From the IMG/VR virus record IMGVR_UViG_3300044953_000256, positions 1-21,608 of that record: a DNA stretch of 21,608 nt; one strand, written 5' to 3'. The stretch is from a virus. Under the pieces are notes generated by a model. It searched no databases. It was not told where the DNA came from and worked only from the letters and a program-made list of their open reading frames with translations. A program made the position numbers and the translations under genes. Of this stretch, positions 11,465 through 21,608 are shown one piece after another (within the stretch, counting starts at the first letter, position 1; the number at the start of each line of letters is the position of its first letter).

Positions 11465-13618
11465 TTAGCTACCAAATTCTACACCAGTTGGTAAGATATT
11501 GAAATCTAAGAGGATAAATTCAGCTGTACGAGTTGGTTGTAAATAAATTTGACCTACTAATTGATTACGATCAATTACATCTGGAGTGTTATTTGATTCA
11601 TCCATTACTACTTTGAAAGCATATAAACCTTGTCTTTGTTGTACACTTTCTAAGTATGGAGTAACTTGAGTTAAGAATGCATTACGAGTTACAGTTGTGT
11701 TTTGTTCAAATACTAAGTTCTCAGATACATTACTAATAAATCTCTTAAGAGCAATTAATAGACGACGAACATTGATACGATCTAAAGCACTAGTTTTTTT
11801 CTGTAATGTTTTCTGACCAAAAGCAGCTACACCAATATTAGGGAAAGTAGCGATTGGGTTAACTTTACCAGCATATAAATTATCACGATCTGTTGGAGAT
11901 AATTTTCTTTCAGCTTGTAATACATTACCTAATCCACCTCTTGTTAAACCAGCTGGAGCAAACCATTCAGCACTCACATTATCATTGAATGCATATACAC
12001 CGGGCATGATTGTTGAAGCTGGAACCCATACACGCTTACCAGTTTCTTGAGATATTACTTGAACCCAAGGCCAATAAGCACCAGCATAGTTAGTATCTAA
12101 ACCAGCAGCTGTATTAGTAACTTGTGATAAAGTAGCTCCATATGGTCTTAAATCTGTAATATAGAAGCAATCACCTCTTTCTTCAGCTAAACTGATAAAA
12201 TCACCCACTGCTGAAGAGTGTAATGATTGAATTAAACCTGGAGTAGATAATAAACTAAAATCATACTCATCTTTGTTTGATAATAAATCAGAAGCTGTAG
12301 CGTAAGCTGTAGCAGCTAAACCTTGAGTTGTTGAACCAATATTAGTAAATAATGTATTACCAATATTATTTGTATCATCACCTAAAGCACTACCAAAAGA
12401 TCCACCTTCAGATCCACTACCATTTACTGGAATAGAAGCTGTGTATTCATTTTTAGCAACTCCTGAGTTATCAAAATAGTTTGGAGTTGTATAGTTAACT
12501 TGTTTCACACGAACATAGCGGCTACCATTAGCATAATCACCAGATGTTCTAATATAGAAATTACCATCAGCATCTTGAATAACTTGTTTTACCTGGTTAC
12601 CAACAACAGCCTCTAAGTAGTTTGGTTGATTTGGATCTAATGATAAGTTACTAAATGTTTCTAAAACAGTTTTACTATTATTATTATCATTACCTTGACG
12701 AACTAATAATGTGAATGTACCACTTGCTGTGTTAGCGTTTTGAATTTCCCATCTTACATTCATATTAGATCCACTAATTAATGAATTATCAGATAAAATA
12801 GAACCTGAGTTATTCATTATAATACCAGTAGATAAAGTTTCTAATACAAATGTTGAAATACTAGGTGTTGAAGCAAGTGAACCACCACCTAATATTGATT
12901 GTGATGGGAATGATTGGAAGGCACTGAAATAAAATTGACCACCATACCAGTTAGAGTTATTAAGACTAGTACCATCTGAAGAAGCTGTTATCTCAAATAT
13001 ATTAGTAGCAGCATCATAACTAGCTGATAAATACTGATTAAGAGCTGGTGTGTTGTTGATTATATTTTTAGTTACTGTACCAAAAGCATCAGCACCCCAA
13101 GATCCAGCATTATAAGCATTTACATAATATACATTTTGATTCTCATCAAAATATGTAAAATTAGAAGCCGCTATTTTAACATTATCAAAAGCATTTAAAT
13201 CAAATACAAATCCTTTACTCCAATCATCAAACATATCATTAGTTAAATTCATGCTAGCTGTAGCCTTAGTATTATTTCCTCCAGTTCCAGCCACATTATT
13301 TGAAATTAAACTAGATGTGGCTGAGGTATAAGTACCTTCAGTCACCCTAGTGATTAAAGCTGTAGTACCACCTTGTTGGAAATAATTTCTAGCTGTGATT
13401 GATGTTAAAAACTCATAATTTGCACCACCACTAGTAAACATACCACCAAATTTATTCTTGAAGTCACTATAAGAAGTAACTACTGTAGGTATATTAACTG
13501 GACCTATAACTGTTGGACCAACTAAAGATAAACCAACAGTAACTGGATTCTGTGTTATTTGTGATAAATCATTCTCACGTACGAGTACGCCTGGAGAAAT
13601 TAATGTTTCTTGCGCCAT
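11465..13618 (-). CDS. Contractile tail sheath protein, gp18-like
   Basis: The 717-aa protein opens with ETLISPGVLVRENDLSQ, the standard sheath N-terminus that forms the strand swapped between subunits, then SLVGPTVIGPVNIPTVV and YSDFKNKFGG. The middle (about 60-430) is a variable Ser/Thr/Asn-rich insertion. The conserved C-terminal sheath domain is clear from about residue 450: GDCFYITDLRPYG, YWPWVQVI, KRVWVPASTIMPGVYA, NPIATFPNIGVAAFGQKTLQ, RRLLIALKRFISN, and NQLVGQIYLQPTRTAEFILL. T4 gp18 is 659 aa, so the length is normal. It polymerises around the tube and contracts during infection. It is preceded by a terminator and an AATAAATAT-type motif (13642-13650), so its unit probably starts here. 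Confidence 0.95.
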   Translation of the reverse strand: MAQETLISPGVLVRENDLSQITQNPVTVGLSLVGPTVIGPVNIPTVVTSYSDFKNKFGGMFTSGGANYEFLTSITARNYFQQGGTTALITRVTEGTYTSATSSLISNNVAGTGGNNTKATASMNLTNDMFDDWSKGFVFDLNAFDNVKIAASNFTYFDENQNVYYVNAYNAGSWGADAFGTVTKNIINNTPALNQYLSASYDAATNIFEITASSDGTSLNNSNWYGGQFYFSAFQSFPSQSILGGGSLASTPSISTFVLETLSTGIIMNNSGSILSDNSLISGSNMNVRWEIQNANTASGTFTLLVRQGNDNNNSKTVLETFSNLSLDPNQPNYLEAVVGNQVKQVIQDADGNFYIRTSGDYANGSRYVRVKQVNYTTPNYFDNSGVAKNEYTASIPVNGSGSEGGSFGSALGDDTNNIGNTLFTNIGSTTQGLAATAYATASDLLSNKDEYDFSLLSTPGLIQSLHSSAVGDFISLAEERGDCFYITDLRPYGATLSQVTNTAAGLDTNYAGAYWPWVQVISQETGKRVWVPASTIMPGVYAFNDNVSAEWFAPAGLTRGGLGNVLQAERKLSPTDRDNLYAGKVNPIATFPNIGVAAFGQKTLQKKTSALDRINVRRLLIALKRFISNVSENLVFEQNTTVTRNAFLTQVTPYLESVQQRQGLYAFKVVMDESNNTPDVIDRNQLVGQIYLQPTRTAEFILLDFNILPTGVEFGS

Positions 13619-14719: not shown

Positions 14720-14929
14720 TTATTTTTTTAAACCATATTTAATATAACGATACCAGATACGTTCATGTATGTAATATTGTAGTGGTTTATATGTTAATTC
14801 AGCAATGCCAAATGCCGCACCTACTTTAACAGATCCACTAACAACCCACATAATTACAAACCCAATAAAGGTACTGATAATGCGATAGCTGATTGTTTTA
14901 GCTATATGTCGTTTTTTCTCTACATGCAT
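14720..14929 (-). CDS. DUF2061 family small membrane protein
   Basis: The 69-aa protein has the DUF2061 (PF09834) pattern: an N-terminal basic segment followed by KTISYR (residues 11-16), a membrane helix (about 18-31, IISTFIGFVIMWVV), a glycine-containing second hydrophobic stretch, E44, K48, and YYIHERIW at about 52-59. The function of this family is not established. It is often found near or fused to sulfate-activation enzymes, and here it lies in the same cluster as an APS-kinase-like gene. It follows the 77-aa gene with a gap of one base. Two membrane segments are likely, with both ends on the same side. Confidence 0.85.
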   Translation of the reverse strand: MHVEKKRHIAKTISYRIISTFIGFVIMWVVSGSVKVGAAFGIAELTYKPLQYYIHERIWYRYIKYGLKK

Positions 14930-14930
14930 A

Positions 14931-15164
14931 TTATCTTACAATTACTACATCGCCTCTCCAAATTACTTCATTTGCTTTGCAGCTGATGTGATGTTTATCT
15001 ACATCTTGTTTTTTGAGAGAGTCCCAAACATTATCTCGTGTTGTATGAACAGGAATTAAAAATATAACATTAGAGCAAATTTGTTCTTCACCATCAATTA
15101 AAATTCTCCAAAATAGATGGTTGTCTTGACACATAGTGTTATATCTTACTTTAACATCTATCAT
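14931..15164 (-). CDS. Hypothetical protein, 77 aa
   Basis: The protein is a small mixed alpha/beta molecule beginning MIDVKVRYNTMCQDNHLFWR and ending IWRGDVVIVR, with strands at both ends and cysteines at residues 13, 30 and 62. There is no membrane segment. It overlaps the HAD phosphatase gene upstream by 4 bases and abuts the DUF2061 gene, so it belongs to the activation/glycan operon. Such short proteins next to sulfate-activation or nucleotide genes occur in marine phages, but I cannot assign a family or function. Confidence 0.65.
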   Translation of the reverse strand: MIDVKVRYNTMCQDNHLFWRILIDGEEQICSNVIFLIPVHTTRDNVWDSLKKQDVDKHHISCKANEVIWRGDVVIVR

Positions 15165-15499
15165 ATTCCTCTGTTTCTATTTAAATTAATAGCTACAGCC
15201 CTATCAACAAGTGGTTTTTTGGGGTCTCTATCATTTATAATATAACGAGTTCCTCTGCCAATTCCAAAGACAATTTGATGGTATTTTACTCCTATTTTAT
15301 CAAGTTCTTGTTTTGTAAACAATTCAAGCTCAGGAGGACGAGCAGTTGTAATCACAATGTGTGCTCCTCTATTGTATTCTTTATTTACTAAATCAATAAC
15401 GCTTTGAATAGGTTCAGGTTCTGTTGCTTGTAGAGTATTAAACGTTCTATACTTAACTAAAGTACCATCTATATCTACAAAGCAAGTTGGGTGTTTCAT
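15161..15499 (-). CDS. HAD-superfamily phosphatase
   Basis: All HAD motifs are visible in 112 residues: motif I FVDIDGTL (Asp9 nucleophile, Asp11), motif II as ITTARP (Thr51/Thr52), and motif IV as INDRD (Asp90, Asp92). Motif III Lys is not certain (K63 or K68). No cap domain fits this length, which is typical of small capless HADs acting on phosphorylated sugars, nucleotides or nucleic-acid 3' ends (GmhB, PNK-phosphatase type). It overlaps both neighbours by 4 bases (ATGA-type), so it is translated together with the nucleotidyltransferase and the 77-aa protein. In context it may remove a phosphate during activated-sugar synthesis or recycle 3'-phosphoadenosine; the substrate is not visible from sequence. 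Confidence 0.82.
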   Translation of the reverse strand: MKHPTCFVDIDGTLVKYRTFNTLQATEPEPIQSVIDLVNKEYNRGAHIVITTARPPELELFTKQELDKIGVKYHQIVFGIGRGTRYIINDRDPKKPLVDRAVAINLNRNRGI

Positions 15500-15882
15500 A
15501 ATTTGCCTTCTGCCTTCATTTGTTCGCGAATCTTAGTGGCTGATATATCATGGATTTCTTGTGGTGGAGTATGTTCAATAATATCATATCCAATACCTCT
15601 ACCAATATTAATAGACTCAATATCAGGGATAATAATAACTCTTACTTTTCCTGCTTCTACTAATTCATCTAATTCATTAAATAAATTTAACATTATTTCA
15701 TGTGCACTCCAAGGATTTTTTTCATCTTTAGGTACATCACGAATACATAATAATACTTTTTTATCTTCATTTAATGCTTGGTCAATTAACCAACGATGAC
15801 CATCATGCCAAGGTTGCCAACGACCTATAAACATTGCCCATGTTCCTGACTTATGGGCAGCTTTAGCTAGTATATTTTGCAT
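15496..15882 (-). CDS. HxGH-type nucleotidyltransferase
   Basis: The 128-aa protein has a GRWQPWHDGHRWL segment (HDGH at 26-29), the nucleotide-binding HxGH motif of the cytidylyltransferase/adenylyltransferase superfamily, and a C-terminal ISATKIR (113-119), the equivalent of the ISSTxxR motif. These are catalytic or ATP/CTP-binding elements. It overlaps the upstream APS-kinase-like gene by 20 bases and the HAD phosphatase by 4. I recall this type of domain fused to APS-kinase-like domains; here the two are separate ORFs. Candidate reactions are transfer of AMP or CMP to a phosphorylated sugar or other acid. ATP sulfurylase belongs to the same fold superfamily, but its specific residues are not apparent here. 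The substrate is unknown. Confidence 0.82.
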   Translation of the reverse strand: MQNILAKAAHKSGTWAMFIGRWQPWHDGHRWLIDQALNEDKKVLLCIRDVPKDEKNPWSAHEIMLNLFNELDELVEAGKVRVIIIPDIESINIGRGIGYDIIEHTPPQEIHDISATKIREQMKAEGKL

Positions 15883-16303
15883 ATTCTAAAATTTGGTTTT
15901 TACAATCTTCAATCTCTAACCATTCTGTATTTAGGTATAGAGCTTCATTCTCTGTTGGGTAATCAAAATCACCTACATGGAATTTTTCTCTACCTCTATC
16001 TACCTCATAAGTTAAATATACCCACTTTACATTGCCATCTAAACTATTTAAATACTGTCTTGCCTCTTTATATGGGTATACTAAAGCTAGTATTATATCT
16101 TTATCTGTTGTTGAATTTAAATAATGAGCAATATCACTGGCTCTATTTAGATTTTTAATGCGGCCTTCTTTGCTATAGTCTTTATTTTGAAATATATCTC
16201 TTAATTGATCTCCATCAATAATTTTAACATCTCTTTCTTGCTTTATAGCATTAGCCAATGTTGATTTTCCACTATGTGGTTGTCCAAATAATACTATAAT
16301 CAT
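15863..16303 (-). CDS. APS-kinase-like P-loop kinase (CysC-related)
   Basis: The 146-aa protein begins with MIIVLFGQPHSGKST (Walker A, residues 7-15), then IIDGDQLRDIF (DGD at 30-32 plus R35) and YSKEGRIKNLNRASDIAHYL (43-62). The spacing DGD..R...YS..xR..N..R matches adenylylsulfate kinase, which phosphorylates adenosine 5'-phosphosulfate to PAPS. The following LVYPYKEARQYL matches the family's 'PY...R' segment, but the C-terminal part (KFHVGDFDYPTENEALYLNT) lacks the usual KGLY motif and is shorter than CysC (about 200 aa). A related kinase acts on other 5'-nucleotide conjugates in capsule phosphoramidate synthesis, so the substrate need not be APS. The start lies in a 4-base overlap with the GT9-like gene. 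Kinase identity is secure; substrate is inferred. Confidence 0.8.
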   Translation of the reverse strand: MIIVLFGQPHSGKSTLANAIKQERDVKIIDGDQLRDIFQNKDYSKEGRIKNLNRASDIAHYLNSTTDKDIILALVYPYKEARQYLNSLDGNVKWVYLTYEVDRGREKFHVGDFDYPTENEALYLNTEWLEIEDCKNQILEYAKYTS

Positions 16304-17262
16304 GATTTATCAATTGCTTTATATATATCGTTTATATCAAATATCTCGCTTACATCATTATAAGGACACTCATGAGCAATACCTTCAAATGAATAATCAA
16401 ATAGATATGAATCAATCATTTTAGTATTTCCTTTTGGAGGTTTAGCAACTAAATTTACGTGTATATCGTATCCGAAATTCTTAGGAGAGGTACCAATCCA
16501 CAATACAGTTGATTTTAACTTCATTGCTGCTGCAGCATGTTGTAAAGATGAATCAATTAATACTCGTTTTTCAGATAAGGCTAGCATTGAAAATAACTCA
16601 TGATTTGTCATCGGTTGATTTACAAACTCAATTCCAGGAATAGAGTGGTTTACATGTCTTCCTACTTGAATAATATGATATTTGCTAGAGTATTTATCTA
16701 CTATTGATTGTACAATACCATAAGGCATATCTCGTGTCCAAGAATAAACTGAATCTTGTTGTAATAGGCCTCCATTTGAGTGAAGAATCATTATTGGTCT
16801 TTCACGACGCCAAACATACATTATATCTCTTTGAATAAGATTTGGATATAGAATTGGGGATTGTTTTTCATATTTTATCCCAAGAAGATCACACCAGTTT
16901 TCAATTAGATGTTTTTTCTTCATAATATGATCTGATTGAAAGTATGGTTCGTGTTTGAATACAATAGTATCTTTATCCTTAATAAAATCATCATAGAAGT
17001 AGGACACCATCCCTACTCTATACACTCTGTGAATATCAGGATGATTTAGAAATACTTCAGGATATGATACTACAAGGATTAATTTGCGATCAGGATATTT
17101 CTTTTTTACTGAGGCAATAAGAGCAGTAGCTGCTACATTTTTTCCTAATCCACCTTCAATATGCCAAACGACATATTTAGTGCTAGTGCTTGATTTGTCT
17201 TCCAAAACTGCTAATTTTTCTTCTTTTAATAAATCTGTTTCTGTTTTATACCCAACATTCAT
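16300..17262 (-). CDS. GT9-like glycosyltransferase (heptosyltransferase-like)
   Basis: The 320-aa protein has the two-domain GT-B outline of family 9. The N-terminal motif WHIEGGLGKNVAATALIASV (33-52) is the acceptor-domain glycine loop, followed by PEVFLNHPDI. The C-terminal donor domain includes IIQVGR at 197-202 and LIDSSLQHAAAAMKLKSTVL (about 235-254), the equivalent of the 'D(S/G)...H.A.A' motif that lies near the donor nucleotide. It probably transfers a heptose or other sugar from a nucleotide donor to a surface glycan. It starts 3 bases after the sulfotransferase stop and overlaps the kinase by 4 bases, placing it in the same operon. Family assignment is fair; donor and acceptor are unknown. 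Confidence 0.75.
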   Translation of the reverse strand: MNVGYKTETDLLKEEKLAVLEDKSSTSTKYVVWHIEGGLGKNVAATALIASVKKKYPDRKLILVVSYPEVFLNHPDIHRVYRVGMVSYFYDDFIKDKDTIVFKHEPYFQSDHIMKKKHLIENWCDLLGIKYEKQSPILYPNLIQRDIMYVWRRERPIMILHSNGGLLQQDSVYSWTRDMPYGIVQSIVDKYSSKYHIIQVGRHVNHSIPGIEFVNQPMTNHELFSMLALSEKRVLIDSSLQHAAAAMKLKSTVLWIGTSPKNFGYDIHVNLVAKPPKGNTKMIDSYLFDYSFEGIAHECPYNDVSEIFDINDIYKAIDKS

Positions 17263-17265
17263 AAC

Positions 17266-18087
17266 TTAAATTTTGTATCCAAAATCATTAAAGAACCAAC
17301 GGTAATTATCCTCTAGAATTTTACAAGCATTAGGTCCTAATACCTCTCTAAAATCGTTTTTAACCGGTTTTAATTCACCTCTAATGATATGATCTCCAAA
17401 GATACCATACCACTTATCGTCTTCATGTGTTAATTGAGGAATATTTACAAAGTCATGTTTAAAATAAGGAATTTCAAGATATTCATAAATGCGTTTCATT
17501 TGTGATTCTGGATCCAAGCATAATTCCTCAAACTTAATAAATAAGATATGTTGATGAGTTCCAGCCACAAGTGTTTGATACATTCTATCTAATGCTGGTC
17601 CAATTGGTGGGTTATTTGACCATACAATCATACGTTTATCTGTAGTGGTACCTGTTAAATCACCCCAATTTGCAATATTAGTTTCAACAAGTGGATTGTT
17701 GCGATATTTTTTCTCTAGTGAAGAATAAATAGCTCTAATATCGCGTATCATGCAAATAATCTTAGGGTTTTCATCATAAGCATTAATAAACTCACGCTCC
17801 ATTCCCCAGCCTCTAGATTTATCTATTACATAAGGTTTGTCTGTAATATTATTATAGAAGCCGTAAATACCGTCTTTTAGGAAGCCTTTAAATCCTTGCT
17901 CCATTATCTTGGAGTCTTGTGCTTTCCACTCAATACCATTTGAAAATATGGTACGGCAAGTAGTCATCATCTCAAACAACCCCGAAGTTGGGGTTGTATG
18001 GATGTCTGGGTTTTGACCTAATATATTTTGAATCAGTGTTGATCCAGCTCGTGGTAACGAGCTGTTGTAGAATATTTTTTTAGGCAT
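17266..18087 (-). CDS. PAPS-dependent sulfotransferase
   Basis: The 273-aa protein starts with KIFYNSSLPRAGSTLIQNIL; PRAGST (12-17) is the 5'-phosphosulfate-binding loop of cytosolic-type sulfotransferases. The 3'-phosphate-binding element follows at MIRDIRAIYSSLEKKY (113-128; R115 and S122 or S123). A C-terminal FIKFEELCLDPESQMKRIYE segment (183-202) is the usual helix after the core, and the length fits the family. It would move a sulfuryl group from PAPS to a hydroxyl on a carbohydrate or other acceptor. The gene is preceded by a 38-base gap after the 114-aa gene and is closely linked to the GT9-like gene. Sulfotransferases occur in cyanophages, but here an APS-kinase-like gene is only about 1 kb away. 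Confidence 0.85.
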   Translation of the reverse strand: MPKKIFYNSSLPRAGSTLIQNILGQNPDIHTTPTSGLFEMMTTCRTIFSNGIEWKAQDSKIMEQGFKGFLKDGIYGFYNNITDKPYVIDKSRGWGMEREFINAYDENPKIICMIRDIRAIYSSLEKKYRNNPLVETNIANWGDLTGTTTDKRMIVWSNNPPIGPALDRMYQTLVAGTHQHILFIKFEELCLDPESQMKRIYEYLEIPYFKHDFVNIPQLTHEDDKWYGIFGDHIIRGELKPVKNDFREVLGPNACKILEDNYRWFFNDFGYKI

Positions 18088-18514: not shown

Positions 18515-18523
18515 AATAAATAT
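18515..18523 (-). promoter_or_regulatory. Candidate late promoter motif ATATTTATT
   Basis: One mismatch to the exact motif, overlapping the methyltransferase stop and 44 bases upstream of ATG 18470 of the 114-aa gene, before the A-rich hexamer leader. Confidence 0.35.
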
Positions 18524-19161
18524 TATATTTTTTTAAAAAGAGCATCAAGTTGAAAAATAGCTCCGCCATAAAGTTGCGGAAAACTATGGTATTCCAAAAT
18601 ATCAACTATTGCAAATCCATATTCTGCCATTTTATCTACTATATCTCCAATTAAAGGAGCACCTTGATTATATTGTACTAGAGATAATTCAGACAATAAG
18701 TAAGATGCGTTTTTTACAGTTTTTTCACCGCCTTTTAATATATCTAACTCAGCACCCTGTACATCGATTTTAATTAAATCTATTGGTTCTCCATCAAAAT
18801 AATTATGACTATCAAGTGTTGTTATAGGAACTGTAATAGTTTCGTAATTTCCATCAGCGTACCACTCTGTGTTTTCTTTGTATAGAGATGCACCCATGCC
18901 TATTGGATTAATTTTTTCTACATATAGTTCCGCAAATCCCTCTTTATCAGAGAGTGCTACTATATCGTATGGTTTTCCAAGTAATCTTAAATACGGCTCA
19001 CAATTTTTATTAGCCTCTACCATCATAATCCTACATTCTGGATTTCTGTAGTAGAGCTGTTTTGTGAAGTTTCCAATATGGGCTCCGATGTCAAGTACTC
19101 GTTTAGGGGTAATGTGTTTAAAAAGTTTGTCCATTCGTTTATTCTTTCGTTCCAACTCCAT
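18523..19161 (-). CDS. FkbM-family methyltransferase
   Basis: The protein has the Rossmann SAM-binding motif PKRVLDIGAHIGNFTKQLYY (19-38), an acidic residue at the end of strand 2 (MMVEAN, 47-52), and the FkbM signature IDLIKIDVQGAELDILKGG (127-145). Its 212 aa (203 if ATG 19134 is used) fit the family, which O-methylates sugars and other natural products. The first 139 bases overlap the end of the upstream GT-B gene in a different frame. ATG 19134 (MDKLFKHITPKR) is an equally good or better start, since the nine codons before it are Lys/Arg/Glu-rich and shared with the glycosyltransferase tail. It likely methylates a glycan made by the surrounding transferases. Confidence 0.85.
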   Translation of the reverse strand: MELERKNKRMDKLFKHITPKRVLDIGAHIGNFTKQLYYRNPECRIMMVEANKNCEPYLRLLGKPYDIVALSDKEGFAELYVEKINPIGMGASLYKENTEWYADGNYETITVPITTLDSHNYFDGEPIDLIKIDVQGAELDILKGGEKTVKNASYLLSELSLVQYNQGAPLIGDIVDKMAEYGFAIVDILEYHSFPQLYGGAIFQLDALFKKI

Positions 19162-20021
19162 TTTGGAGCATAGATTTGTTTTTGTTGTTCTAGATGTAAA
19201 TCTAGTTGACCGTTTCTTACTTTTTCAATTTCCTCTACTAGTATTAAGGCAAATACCTCAGCATGTTTTTGTTTATCCATTAAATATGGATACATTCTAG
19301 CCCATCCCTCTGTTGTTTCAGGTAAAGCACCTAAATTTGATGTTACTACTCTTAAACCAGCAGATAATGCTTCAATAACAGTAATACACGATGTTTCCTC
19401 AAACGTATTTGGATATGCTAATATATCAAATATATGAAGTTCTTTTCGCAATTCCTCATTTGGAGTGAAATCACGATATACTACACCCTCAATAGTCTTA
19501 CATCTATCAAATAACTCTTGATAATTACCTGCAGTAGAGATAGCGAAATCTTTACCATATATTTTAGTGCTGGAGAATATGTGTAGCTCACAGTCTGTAG
19601 GTTTAGCTATTTCCCAAGCATCTAACAGTACATCTAATCCTCTCCAAGGTGTAGAGGTATAACATAGTTTTATTTTATCTTTTTTACCTACAATAGGTCT
19701 TTGCTCTACACCTAAACATGCATTTTTTATTACTTGGGTTTTGAATCCAGGAATACCAAATAGCTTTCTAAACATCTCTGCCTGCCAGTGTGATACGAAT
19801 ACAAATTTATCAATTTTGTCTACACTTCCTCGCTCAGTTAAAAACTGTACTGCTTGTTGATCATATGATAGCTGATTCCAATATATTGTTGGTTTAGAGA
19901 AATCAGCATTAACTGCATAATTAAAGATAGATACTTTATCTTTTATTTCATTTGGTAAACGATGCATGAGCTCCTCATACATCAATTCAGTGCCCCCCAT
20001 TGGTTTATCAAACATAGCCAT
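19023..20021 (-). CDS. GT-B glycosyltransferase (family 4-like)
   Basis: The 332-aa protein has the GT1/GT4-type arrangement: an N-terminal GGTELMYEEL (9-18), FVFVSHWQAEMF (73-84), and IKLCYTSTPWRGLDVLLDAW (117-136), which is the start of the donor domain. The EX7E motif is present as EETSCITVIEALSAG (E209 and E217), followed by VVTSNLGALPE. The C-terminal helix (KWSWNERINEWTNFL) is normal for GT4, after which the tail overlaps the methyltransferase gene. It transfers a sugar from a nucleotide donor with retention of configuration if GT4. It overlaps the upstream GT-A gene by 14 bases. The donor cannot be told from sequence. Confidence 0.87.
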   Translation of the reverse strand: MAMFDKPMGGTELMYEELMHRLPNEIKDKVSIFNYAVNADFSKPTIYWNQLSYDQQAVQFLTERGSVDKIDKFVFVSHWQAEMFRKLFGIPGFKTQVIKNACLGVEQRPIVGKKDKIKLCYTSTPWRGLDVLLDAWEIAKPTDCELHIFSSTKIYGKDFAISTAGNYQELFDRCKTIEGVVYRDFTPNEELRKELHIFDILAYPNTFEETSCITVIEALSAGLRVVTSNLGALPETTEGWARMYPYLMDKQKHAEVFALILVEEIEKVRNGQLDLHLEQQKQIYAPKWSWNERINEWTNFLNTLPLNEYLTSEPILETSQNSSTTEIQNVGL

Positions 20022-20691: not shown

Positions 20692-21608
20692 TTATCCAAC
20701 TTTTGCTTCAAGTGCCTCAACTCTCTTGTCTAGCTCTTGAACTGCTGAGATTATAGGCGCTATCAACTCTTCATATGTTAAACGATAGGCGTCTTTAGTA
20801 TCATCATGTCCTAAAGCATCAAACTCAACGTTCAGCTCTTGAAGTGCTTGTTTTAATTCTTGGGCAATTAAACCATAGCTCTTTTTAGTTCCTGCAAGTG
20901 TACCATCTTTCTGGCCGTATTCATACTTACATTCTCTAACGTATGTTTCACGGTTGTCCCAATTAAATGATACTGGTCTTAGCTTCTTGATCAAGTTCAG
21001 ACCTAAGTTGTCTGGAAGTGATTTGATGTTAGTCTTATCACGACAGTCAGAAACCACAGACCAAGCTACATACACACAGTTACATACGTTATTGCTTGAG
21101 TTACCCCAAACTGTATGATTAGTATTAGGTGATGTTTGAGCACAGTGTCCAACTGCTATTGTGTTATTAACAATAGCATCTATTGATATATCCCATTGAG
21201 CACAGAATCCAACAGCTGTATGACAATTTCTTTCTCCTGTATCACTTATACATCTTAAAGCACCGTAACCAAGAGCGGTGTTTCTAATACCTCCACCTTT
21301 ATTGCAAAGTGCATAATTACCTACCGCTGTATTACCACATCCTGTGGTATTAAACCTTAAGGCATCTCTACCAAAGGCAACATTTTGAACACCTGTTGTA
21401 TTAACTCTTAAAGCAGACCTACCAACAGCTACGTTGTTAGCACCAGTAGTATTACTTCTTAATGCACTATATCCTACTGCTGTGTTGTTTGAACCTATAG
21501 TATTACAAAATAGTGCTCTATAACCTACTGCAGTATTAAGATAACCTACTGTGTTTAATCTCAAAGCGCCATATCCAACTGCTGTGTTTGACACACCAGT
21601 GGTATTAC
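20692..21608 (-). CDS. Tail fibre C-terminus with S74 chaperone domain (partial)
   Basis: The gene runs off the right edge. The GTG at 21594 is not a real start: the preceding codons read T-G in the same repeat pattern. The visible protein has about 6-7 copies of a 17-residue repeat (consensus LR.NTTG..NTAVGY.A) in the first 110 residues, then a spacer. The C-terminus is a Peptidase_S74 intramolecular chaperone (PF13884): VSDCRDKTNIKSL, with Ser182 and Lys187 (numbering from 21594) as the likely self-cleavage dyad, YGLIAQEL, and a terminal trimeric coiled coil (AVQELDKRVEALEAKVG). Such domains trimerise fibres and are released by cleavage before the Ser. Eleven cysteines occur in the visible 300 residues, which is high for a phage fibre. 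It probably recognises the host surface. Confidence 0.88.
   Translation of the reverse strand, partial: NTTGVSNTAVGYGALRLNTVGYLNTAVGYRALFCNTIGSNNTAVGYSALRSNTTGANNVAVGRSALRVNTTGVQNVAFGRDALRFNTTGCGNTAVGNYALCNKGGGIRNTALGYGALRCISDTGERNCHTAVGFCAQWDISIDAIVNNTIAVGHCAQTSPNTNHTVWGNSSNNVCNCVYVAWSVVSDCRDKTNIKSLPDNLGLNLIKKLRPVSFNWDNRETYVRECKYEYGQKDGTLAGTKKSYGLIAQELKQALQELNVEFDALGHDDTKDAYRLTYEELIAPIISAVQELDKRVEALEAKVG
21264..21608 (-). repeat. 51-bp tandem repeats coding 17-aa fibre repeat
   Basis: Degenerate 51-base units, each coding a 17-residue repeat with a GN-T-A-V-G-Y core, run to the window edge inside the fibre gene. The units differ mainly at positions 2-3 and 8-9. They are expected to form a beta-structured fibre shaft. 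The array continues outside the window, so the total number of copies is unknown. Confidence 0.85.

Follow-up and report, generated by a model that had tools for sequence, protein, structure and literature searches.

The closest described counterparts of the gene cassette analysed here are the synthases of 3'-phosphoadenosine 5'-phosphosulfate (PAPS), such as human PAPSS1/2 and the bacterial combinations of CysC with Sat or CysDN. The cassette was identified in the IMG/VR virus record IMGVR_UViG_3300044953_000256, from which positions 1 to 21,608 (21.6 kb, the whole stretch analysed, called here the window) were read, and lies on the minus strand at 14720-18087. It resembles PAPS synthases in its proposed pair of activities: its kinase (KIN) belongs to the adenosine 5'-phosphosulfate (APS) kinase family and carries the substrate motifs of that family, and the kinase and the putative sulfate-activating domain are neighbours or fused. 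The difference is in this second part, which in the cassette is a NadM-like nucleotidyltransferase (NT) of a family of 110-160 amino acids (aa), encoded by a separate phage gene in the window. Only two kinds of ATP sulfurylase are generally recognised, Sat and CysDN. NadM, the archaeal nicotinamide mononucleotide (NMN) adenylyltransferase (NMNAT), shares with NT the fold and the motifs GR.QP.H.GH, NP(F/W) and IS.T..R, but NT is shorter, has Arg in place of the G of GSAQ, contains a PDIxSxNxGRxxGY segment of its own and has APS kinases as partners.

Related genes have been described in other phages. The sulfotransferases of cyanophages S-SKS1, S-SRM01 and S-SCSM1 are homologous to the cassette sulfotransferase (ST), with 25-31% identity, and relatives of KIN or NT were not found in these three records at the thresholds used. 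In phrog_10255, from Stenotrophomonas, Clavibacter and Xanthomonas phages, kinase and NT are fused in one protein; this kinase is more divergent, with DAD or NGD instead of DGD, and no annotated sulfotransferase accompanies it in DLP_6 or Bhz60. Phage cysC genes are widespread and transcribed in freshwater, and have been read as part of assimilatory sulfate reduction (COBRA study, PMC10914622). Like the gene of KIN, these are phage-encoded APS kinase genes, which may be of the same family as KIN or of another.

The favoured explanation, to which a probability of about 0.78 is given, is that the phage has in this cassette a sulfation module, one that makes PAPS for ST and in which NT would be an ATP sulfurylase of a new kind. 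NT would form APS and pyrophosphate from ATP and sulfate, KIN would phosphorylate APS to PAPS, and ST would transfer the sulfate from PAPS. The acceptor would probably be a glycan of the surface or a tail fibre, made by the neighbouring glycosyltransferases, or else a tyrosine. The DUF2061 protein would probably be an accessory membrane protein in sulfate activation. The original prediction, made from the window alone, had proposed that the phage would make its own PAPS and carry out a sulfation with it, and the proposal is supported by the grouping of KIN with APS kinases, by the PAPS loops kept in ST and by the genomic context of NT. It had also placed five genes (ST, KIN, NT, a HAD phosphatase and DUF2061) in one tight operon, and the presence of the cassette was confirmed: all five are intact minus-strand open reading frames (ORFs), and neighbours overlap by 4-20 nucleotides (nt) or are 1-3 nt apart. 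Two genes of the interval, of 320 and 77 aa, were absent from that prediction. The members of the cassette are:

17266..18087, minus strand: ST, PAPS-dependent sulfotransferase, Sulfotransfer_3 (5' loop PRAGST, 3' motif RD..a.ySS)
16300..17262, minus strand: conserved 320-aa enzyme between ST and KIN, weak GT9-like similarity
15863..16303, minus strand: KIN, predicted APS kinase, short-lid form, by APS_kinase profile, fold and motifs
15496..15882, minus strand: NT, nucleotidyltransferase, proposed NadM-like ATP sulfurylase by motifs and genomic context
15161..15499, minus strand: HAD-type phosphatase, optional member, with DIDGT motif, weak HAD_PNKP similarity and phrog_1238
14931..15164, minus strand: small conserved ORF of 77 aa, with 33 related loci
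14720..14929, minus strand: DUF2061 small membrane protein, conserved member (PF09834, 2.1e-15, over cut-off)

The APS-kinase-like character ascribed to KIN by the original prediction held for the Pfam APS_kinase profile PF01583 (E=9.4e-11; 42.4 bits versus a cut-off of 21.1) and failed for the stricter APS kinase equivalog TIGR00455 (43 versus 139 bits). KIN contains the motifs GQPHSGKST (the P-loop), DGDQLR and YSKEGRIKNLNR, and both substrate motifs of the APS kinase family, DGD..R and (F/Y)S..(D/G)R..N, are present. The P-loop, D29, G30, D31, R34, G46, R47 and N50 were invariant in 56 relatives, and among these D31, R34, R47 and N50 match the substrate-binding positions of characterised APS kinases. 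A profile of the 56 relatives compared with solved structures ranked APS kinases at the top (best E 5.7e-17). With the AlphaFold model of KIN (mean confidence, pLDDT, 94.8), Foldseek placed APS-bound APS kinases first, the top one being 7yq1 (TM score 0.86 on the query). Both by profile and by fold, KIN thus falls among the APS kinases, away from enzymes that act on other substrates. Its lid is shorter than that of CysC, and KIN is predicted to be an APS kinase of a short-lid form.

To identify the partners of NT in cellular organisms, 84,980 species genomes were scanned; this gave 75 NT loci, 71 of them with a scored NT ORF. APS kinase is fused to NT in 28 of the 71 and adjacent in 33 (together 61), and the fusions occur in both domain orders, NT-CysC in Omnitrophota and CysC-NT in Acidobacteriota. 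Other phyla with NT are Bacteroidota, Fidelibacterota, Nitrospirota, Planctomycetota and Patescibacteria, besides others. In Flavobacteriales, for example, genes for CysQ, a flippase and sulfotransferases come after CysC-NT, with CysC at full length; in Patescibacteria a sulfotransferase adjoins an NT-kinase fusion, and in Nitrospiraceae NT adjoins cysH and sulfite reductase. Full-length CysC among these partners exceeds the equivalog cut-off, with 277 bits. Two Nitrospiraceae (L187 and L192) contain, besides NT by cysH, a Sat-CysC fusion elsewhere, that is, two possible routes of sulfate activation. In Alphaproteobacteria (L223, L231, L235 and L236; for example Inquilinus limosus) the fused kinase-NT presents NADEVR or a similar motif in place of DGD.VR, and its substrate may differ; similar proteins were also identified in Stenotrophomonas phages (phrog_10255).

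In 50 genomes with NT, APS kinase was identified in 48, sat in only 7 and a strong cysD match in 7, and 36 of the 48 draft genomes having both NT and APS kinase contain neither sat nor cysD. An order-level comparison comprised 396 genomes of Flavobacteriales (the order of NT genome G032), where the NT profile score was bimodal, 8 genomes at >=137 bits and the rest at <=35. All 8 contain cysC and lack both cysD and sat, while cysD or sat was identified in 134 of the 136 cysC-containing genomes without NT (Fisher p=1.2e-11, in a test that treats related genomes as independent, the 8 NT genomes not being phylogenetically independent). The exchange is also visible within a locus. In L274 and L280 the arrangement is SprA-like, GcvH, TonB-like, cysC-cysD-cysN, cysQ, flippase (wzx) and sulfotransferases, and in L270, L271 and L273 cysC-NT occupies that place between the same flanks, most of whose proteins are 41-83% identical. 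CysC is less identical between the two arrangements (47-51%) than within each (65-71%), and so cysC-NT probably moved as one unit. This genomic replacement of cysD or sat beside cysC, found for cellular relatives of NT and not for the window gene itself, is the strongest evidence for the proposed formation of APS by NT. Its fusion or adjacency to cysC, the exclusion of cysD and sat and the swap in cellular genomes make it very probable that NT represents a third, so far unrecognised kind of ATP sulfurylase, in a family of minimal NadM-like enzymes that would stand in for CysD/CysN or Sat in many bacteria.

The sequence of NT contains GRWQPWHDGH and ISATKIRE and exceeds the cut-off of Pfam CTP_transf_like (3.2e-5). 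Conserved in its relatives are GR.Q..H.GH, R48, NP, PD, GR..GY and ISAT..R. The invariant R48, at the Gly position of NadM GSAQ, and PDIxSxNxGRxxGY form a signature of its own, whose arginines could bind sulfate. The model has a fold of the NadM-like family (pLDDT 80.9, with lower confidence towards the C-terminus). NT is not homologous to CysD, being an HxGH and not a PP-loop enzyme, and the Sat motifs QTRNP.HR.H and GRDHAG are not found in it, GRWQPWHDGH being there instead. In Foldseek, Sat structures were among the weak rows, yeast Sat being listed at rank 40 (E=0.11); phosphopantetheine adenylyltransferase (PPAT) and NMNAT were among the 50 matches listed by VIA-align, and the absence of Sat from these is uninformative. 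By sequence, a Sat-type ATP sulfurylase was rejected, given the lack of a profile match. For the relation of NT to ATP sulfurylase raised by the original prediction, therefore, homology with Sat found no profile match, and it is genomic context that marks a functional replacement. In NCBIfam of June 2026 neither the window NT nor a cellular relative is named as ATP sulfurylase.

The distribution of the cassette in phages was surveyed in 160 loci fetched from IMG/VR and in 81 dereplicated KIN clusters, with neighbours of the clusters counted within 3.5 kb; the cluster counts are lower bounds, contig ends cutting some loci. KIN and NT occur together in nearly all 160 loci, and most loci in tail regions also contain ST and DUF2061. 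Among the 81 clusters NT was identified in 74, DUF2061 in 56, ST in 49 (at 60 nt or less in 30) and the GT9-like gene in 42. The arrangement of the cassette is not due to chance, since the gene combination recurs across loci. Neither cysD nor sat was found in 49 phage records searched, most of them fragments. PAPS reductase was found in none of 40 phage records searched, so that nothing indicates PAPS made for reduction in phages, and this use was rejected. The relatives of KIN, located with NT and often with ST, differ in this from the published reading of freshwater cysC and suggest that phage cysC of the KIN family serves sulfation and not assimilatory reduction.

Several observations weigh against the proposed sulfation module, in addition to the relatedness of the 8 Flavobacteriales genomes. 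The nearest named relatives of NT are NMN adenylyltransferases of the NadM type, and its match to the Sat profile (PF01747), spanning 24 residues with E=0.12, is below the cut-off. The replacement has exceptions, as 12 of the 48 NT genomes carry sat or cysD as well, and many records in the analysis are drafts or fragments. In the tree, built on few columns and with many forks unresolved, phage NTs group with short-kinase cellular forms, mainly from Fidelibacterota and Bacteroidota; the clade with the swap evidence and canonical CysC is a neighbour of the phage clade and excludes it, so the function proposed for the cellular cysC-NT clade would have to carry over to the phages. Finally, in a phage group that includes records of 309-321 kb, KIN-NT adjoins an N6/N4 DNA methylase gene, in most cases with no Sulfotransfer_3 gene. 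Members of this group are L042 (around 5.4-7.5 kb), L081, L148, L066 and L050, two of the records being larger than 300 kb. Among KIN-NT phages without a nearby ST, Sulfotransfer_3 was over its cut-off in 1 of 40 records, other sulfotransferase families not being searched.

An unlikely alternative, with some precedent, is that the product of KIN and NT is a different activated nucleotide, with NT forming a nucleoside-5'-X bond and KIN adding a 3'-phosphate, on the model of the CDP-phosphoramidate pathway of O-methyl phosphoramidate (MeOPN). The CDP-NH2 kinase of that pathway (Campylobacter Cj1415c) is a homologue of APS kinase, and such a role would fit the short lid of KIN, its score below the equivalog cut-off and the occurrence of KIN-NT without ST. 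However, APS kinases are the top solved relatives of KIN; full-length CysC, cysQ, cysH and sulfotransferases are found among the partners of NT in cells, where it also replaces cysD/cysN. Genes for the MeOPN glutamine kinase or cytidylyltransferase were not recognised in the loci read, in which no dedicated search for them was made.

It is more doubtful still that KIN uses APS made by the host and ST the PAPS, with an unrelated or accessory role for NT. The assignment of KIN is firmer than that of NT, and CysD was identified in 243 of the 396 genomes of the likely host group, but phage and cellular NT genes alike nearly always adjoin the kinase or are fused to it, and NT stands in for cysD/cysN in genomes lacking them. 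Hardly probable is a NadR-like salvage of NAD in which KIN is a nicotinamide riboside kinase, NT an NMN adenylyltransferase and ST a coincidental neighbour. The named families nearest to NT would agree with it, as would the NADAR-domain gene that adjoins the fused kinase-NT of phage Bhz60. Against this, KIN resembles APS kinase and not nicotinamide riboside kinase; NT is below the NCBIfam cut-offs for NMN adenylyltransferases (37.8 versus 127 bits and 32.2 versus 181), matching only in residues 16-93, little more than its N-terminal half; and the fusion to canonical CysC and the exclusion of cysD are left unexplained.

In the favoured sulfation module, ST would be the user of PAPS. It matched Sulfotransfer_3 (PF13469; 1.5e-16, 61.8 bits versus a cut-off of 27) and phrog_27463 (2e-42). 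The PAPS-binding loops, among them the PRAGST loop noted in the original prediction, are kept: the residues of the loop, SLPRAGSTL in ST, are conserved in 67 relatives, and P12, R13, G15, S16, R115 and S123 are invariant in 13 representatives. The nearest solved relatives are protein-tyrosine sulfotransferases (1e-10). A glycan is a plausible acceptor because glycosyltransferases and a fibre adjoin the cassette. The 320-aa protein, whose gene separates ST from KIN in many phages, has a weak match to heptosyltransferase I (E=0.075); no Pfam match in 22 members of its family and no solved relative were found, and it is probably a glycosyltransferase of GT9-like fold. In L122 (6775-10167) and L127 (2507-6004), ORFs of 1130-1165 aa by the cassette apparently join methyltransferase, glycosyltransferase and heptosyltransferase-like parts.

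The HAD protein has a match to HAD_PNKP below the cut-off (1.6e-4) and one to phrog_1238 (6.7e-13). It was identified in 14 of the 81 phage KIN clusters, and in some phages adjoins heptose-type genes. The suggestion that it recycles 3'-phosphoadenosine found no support, nor did a CysQ-like role as phosphatase of this product: HAD is optional, and the CysQ of related loci belongs to the inositol-phosphatase family. The gap between HAD and NT is about 1.8 kb longer in L114 (6742-8996), L017, L030, L109, L117 and L129; the extra genes in L114 are cytidylyltransferase-like, a PfkB-type kinase and an epimerase, resembling ADP-heptose synthesis. For the 77-aa ORF no Pfam or PHROG family was at or near the cut-off. 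DUF2061 is located directly before cysC in five canonical cysC-cysD-cysN loci of Flavobacteriales (L275, L277, L279, L283 and L285). This adjacency, independent of the phages, suggests a role of the membrane family in sulfate activation. A literature search on DUF2061 turned up nothing bearing on sulfate.

The gene run of the window is transcribed in the order S74 fibre, second glycosyltransferase-like gene, glycosyltransferase group 1, FkbM methyltransferase, 159-aa ORF, ST, GT9-like 320-aa protein, KIN, NT, HAD, 77-aa ORF and DUF2061, after which come three small ORFs and the tail sheath. The cassette is thus flanked by fibre genes on one side and by the sheath on the other. The flanking features are:

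20692..21606, minus strand: tail-fibre-like protein with S74 chaperone domain (PF13884, 5e-11), running off the window
19023..20021, minus strand: glycosyltransferase group 1, located upstream within the gene run (PF13692, 2e-9; phrog_2170, 4e-32)
18523..19161, minus strand: FkbM-family methyltransferase, likewise located upstream within the gene run (PF05050, 1.7e-23)
11465..13618, minus strand: tail sheath protein, downstream

The host of this phage is likely one of the Bacteroidota, because the nearest relative of the sheath is that of Flavobacterium phage immuto (47.7% identity across 99%).

No report of NT as ATP sulfurylase, or of a phage cassette of cysC and sulfotransferase, was found in the open-access literature. 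It is considered likely that a third class of ATP sulfurylase, often fused to the kinase, exists in many phyla, and that phages of probable Bacteroidota hosts run a self-sufficient synthesis of PAPS together with sulfation. If true, a tiny third ATP sulfurylase would account for the first step of sulfate activation where many draft genomes lack it. The virus, in turn, would be independent of host PAPS and would add sulfate to its fibres or to the surface of the host. The cysC genes of phages in lakes and oceans could then be reread as serving sulfation instead of assimilatory sulfate reduction.

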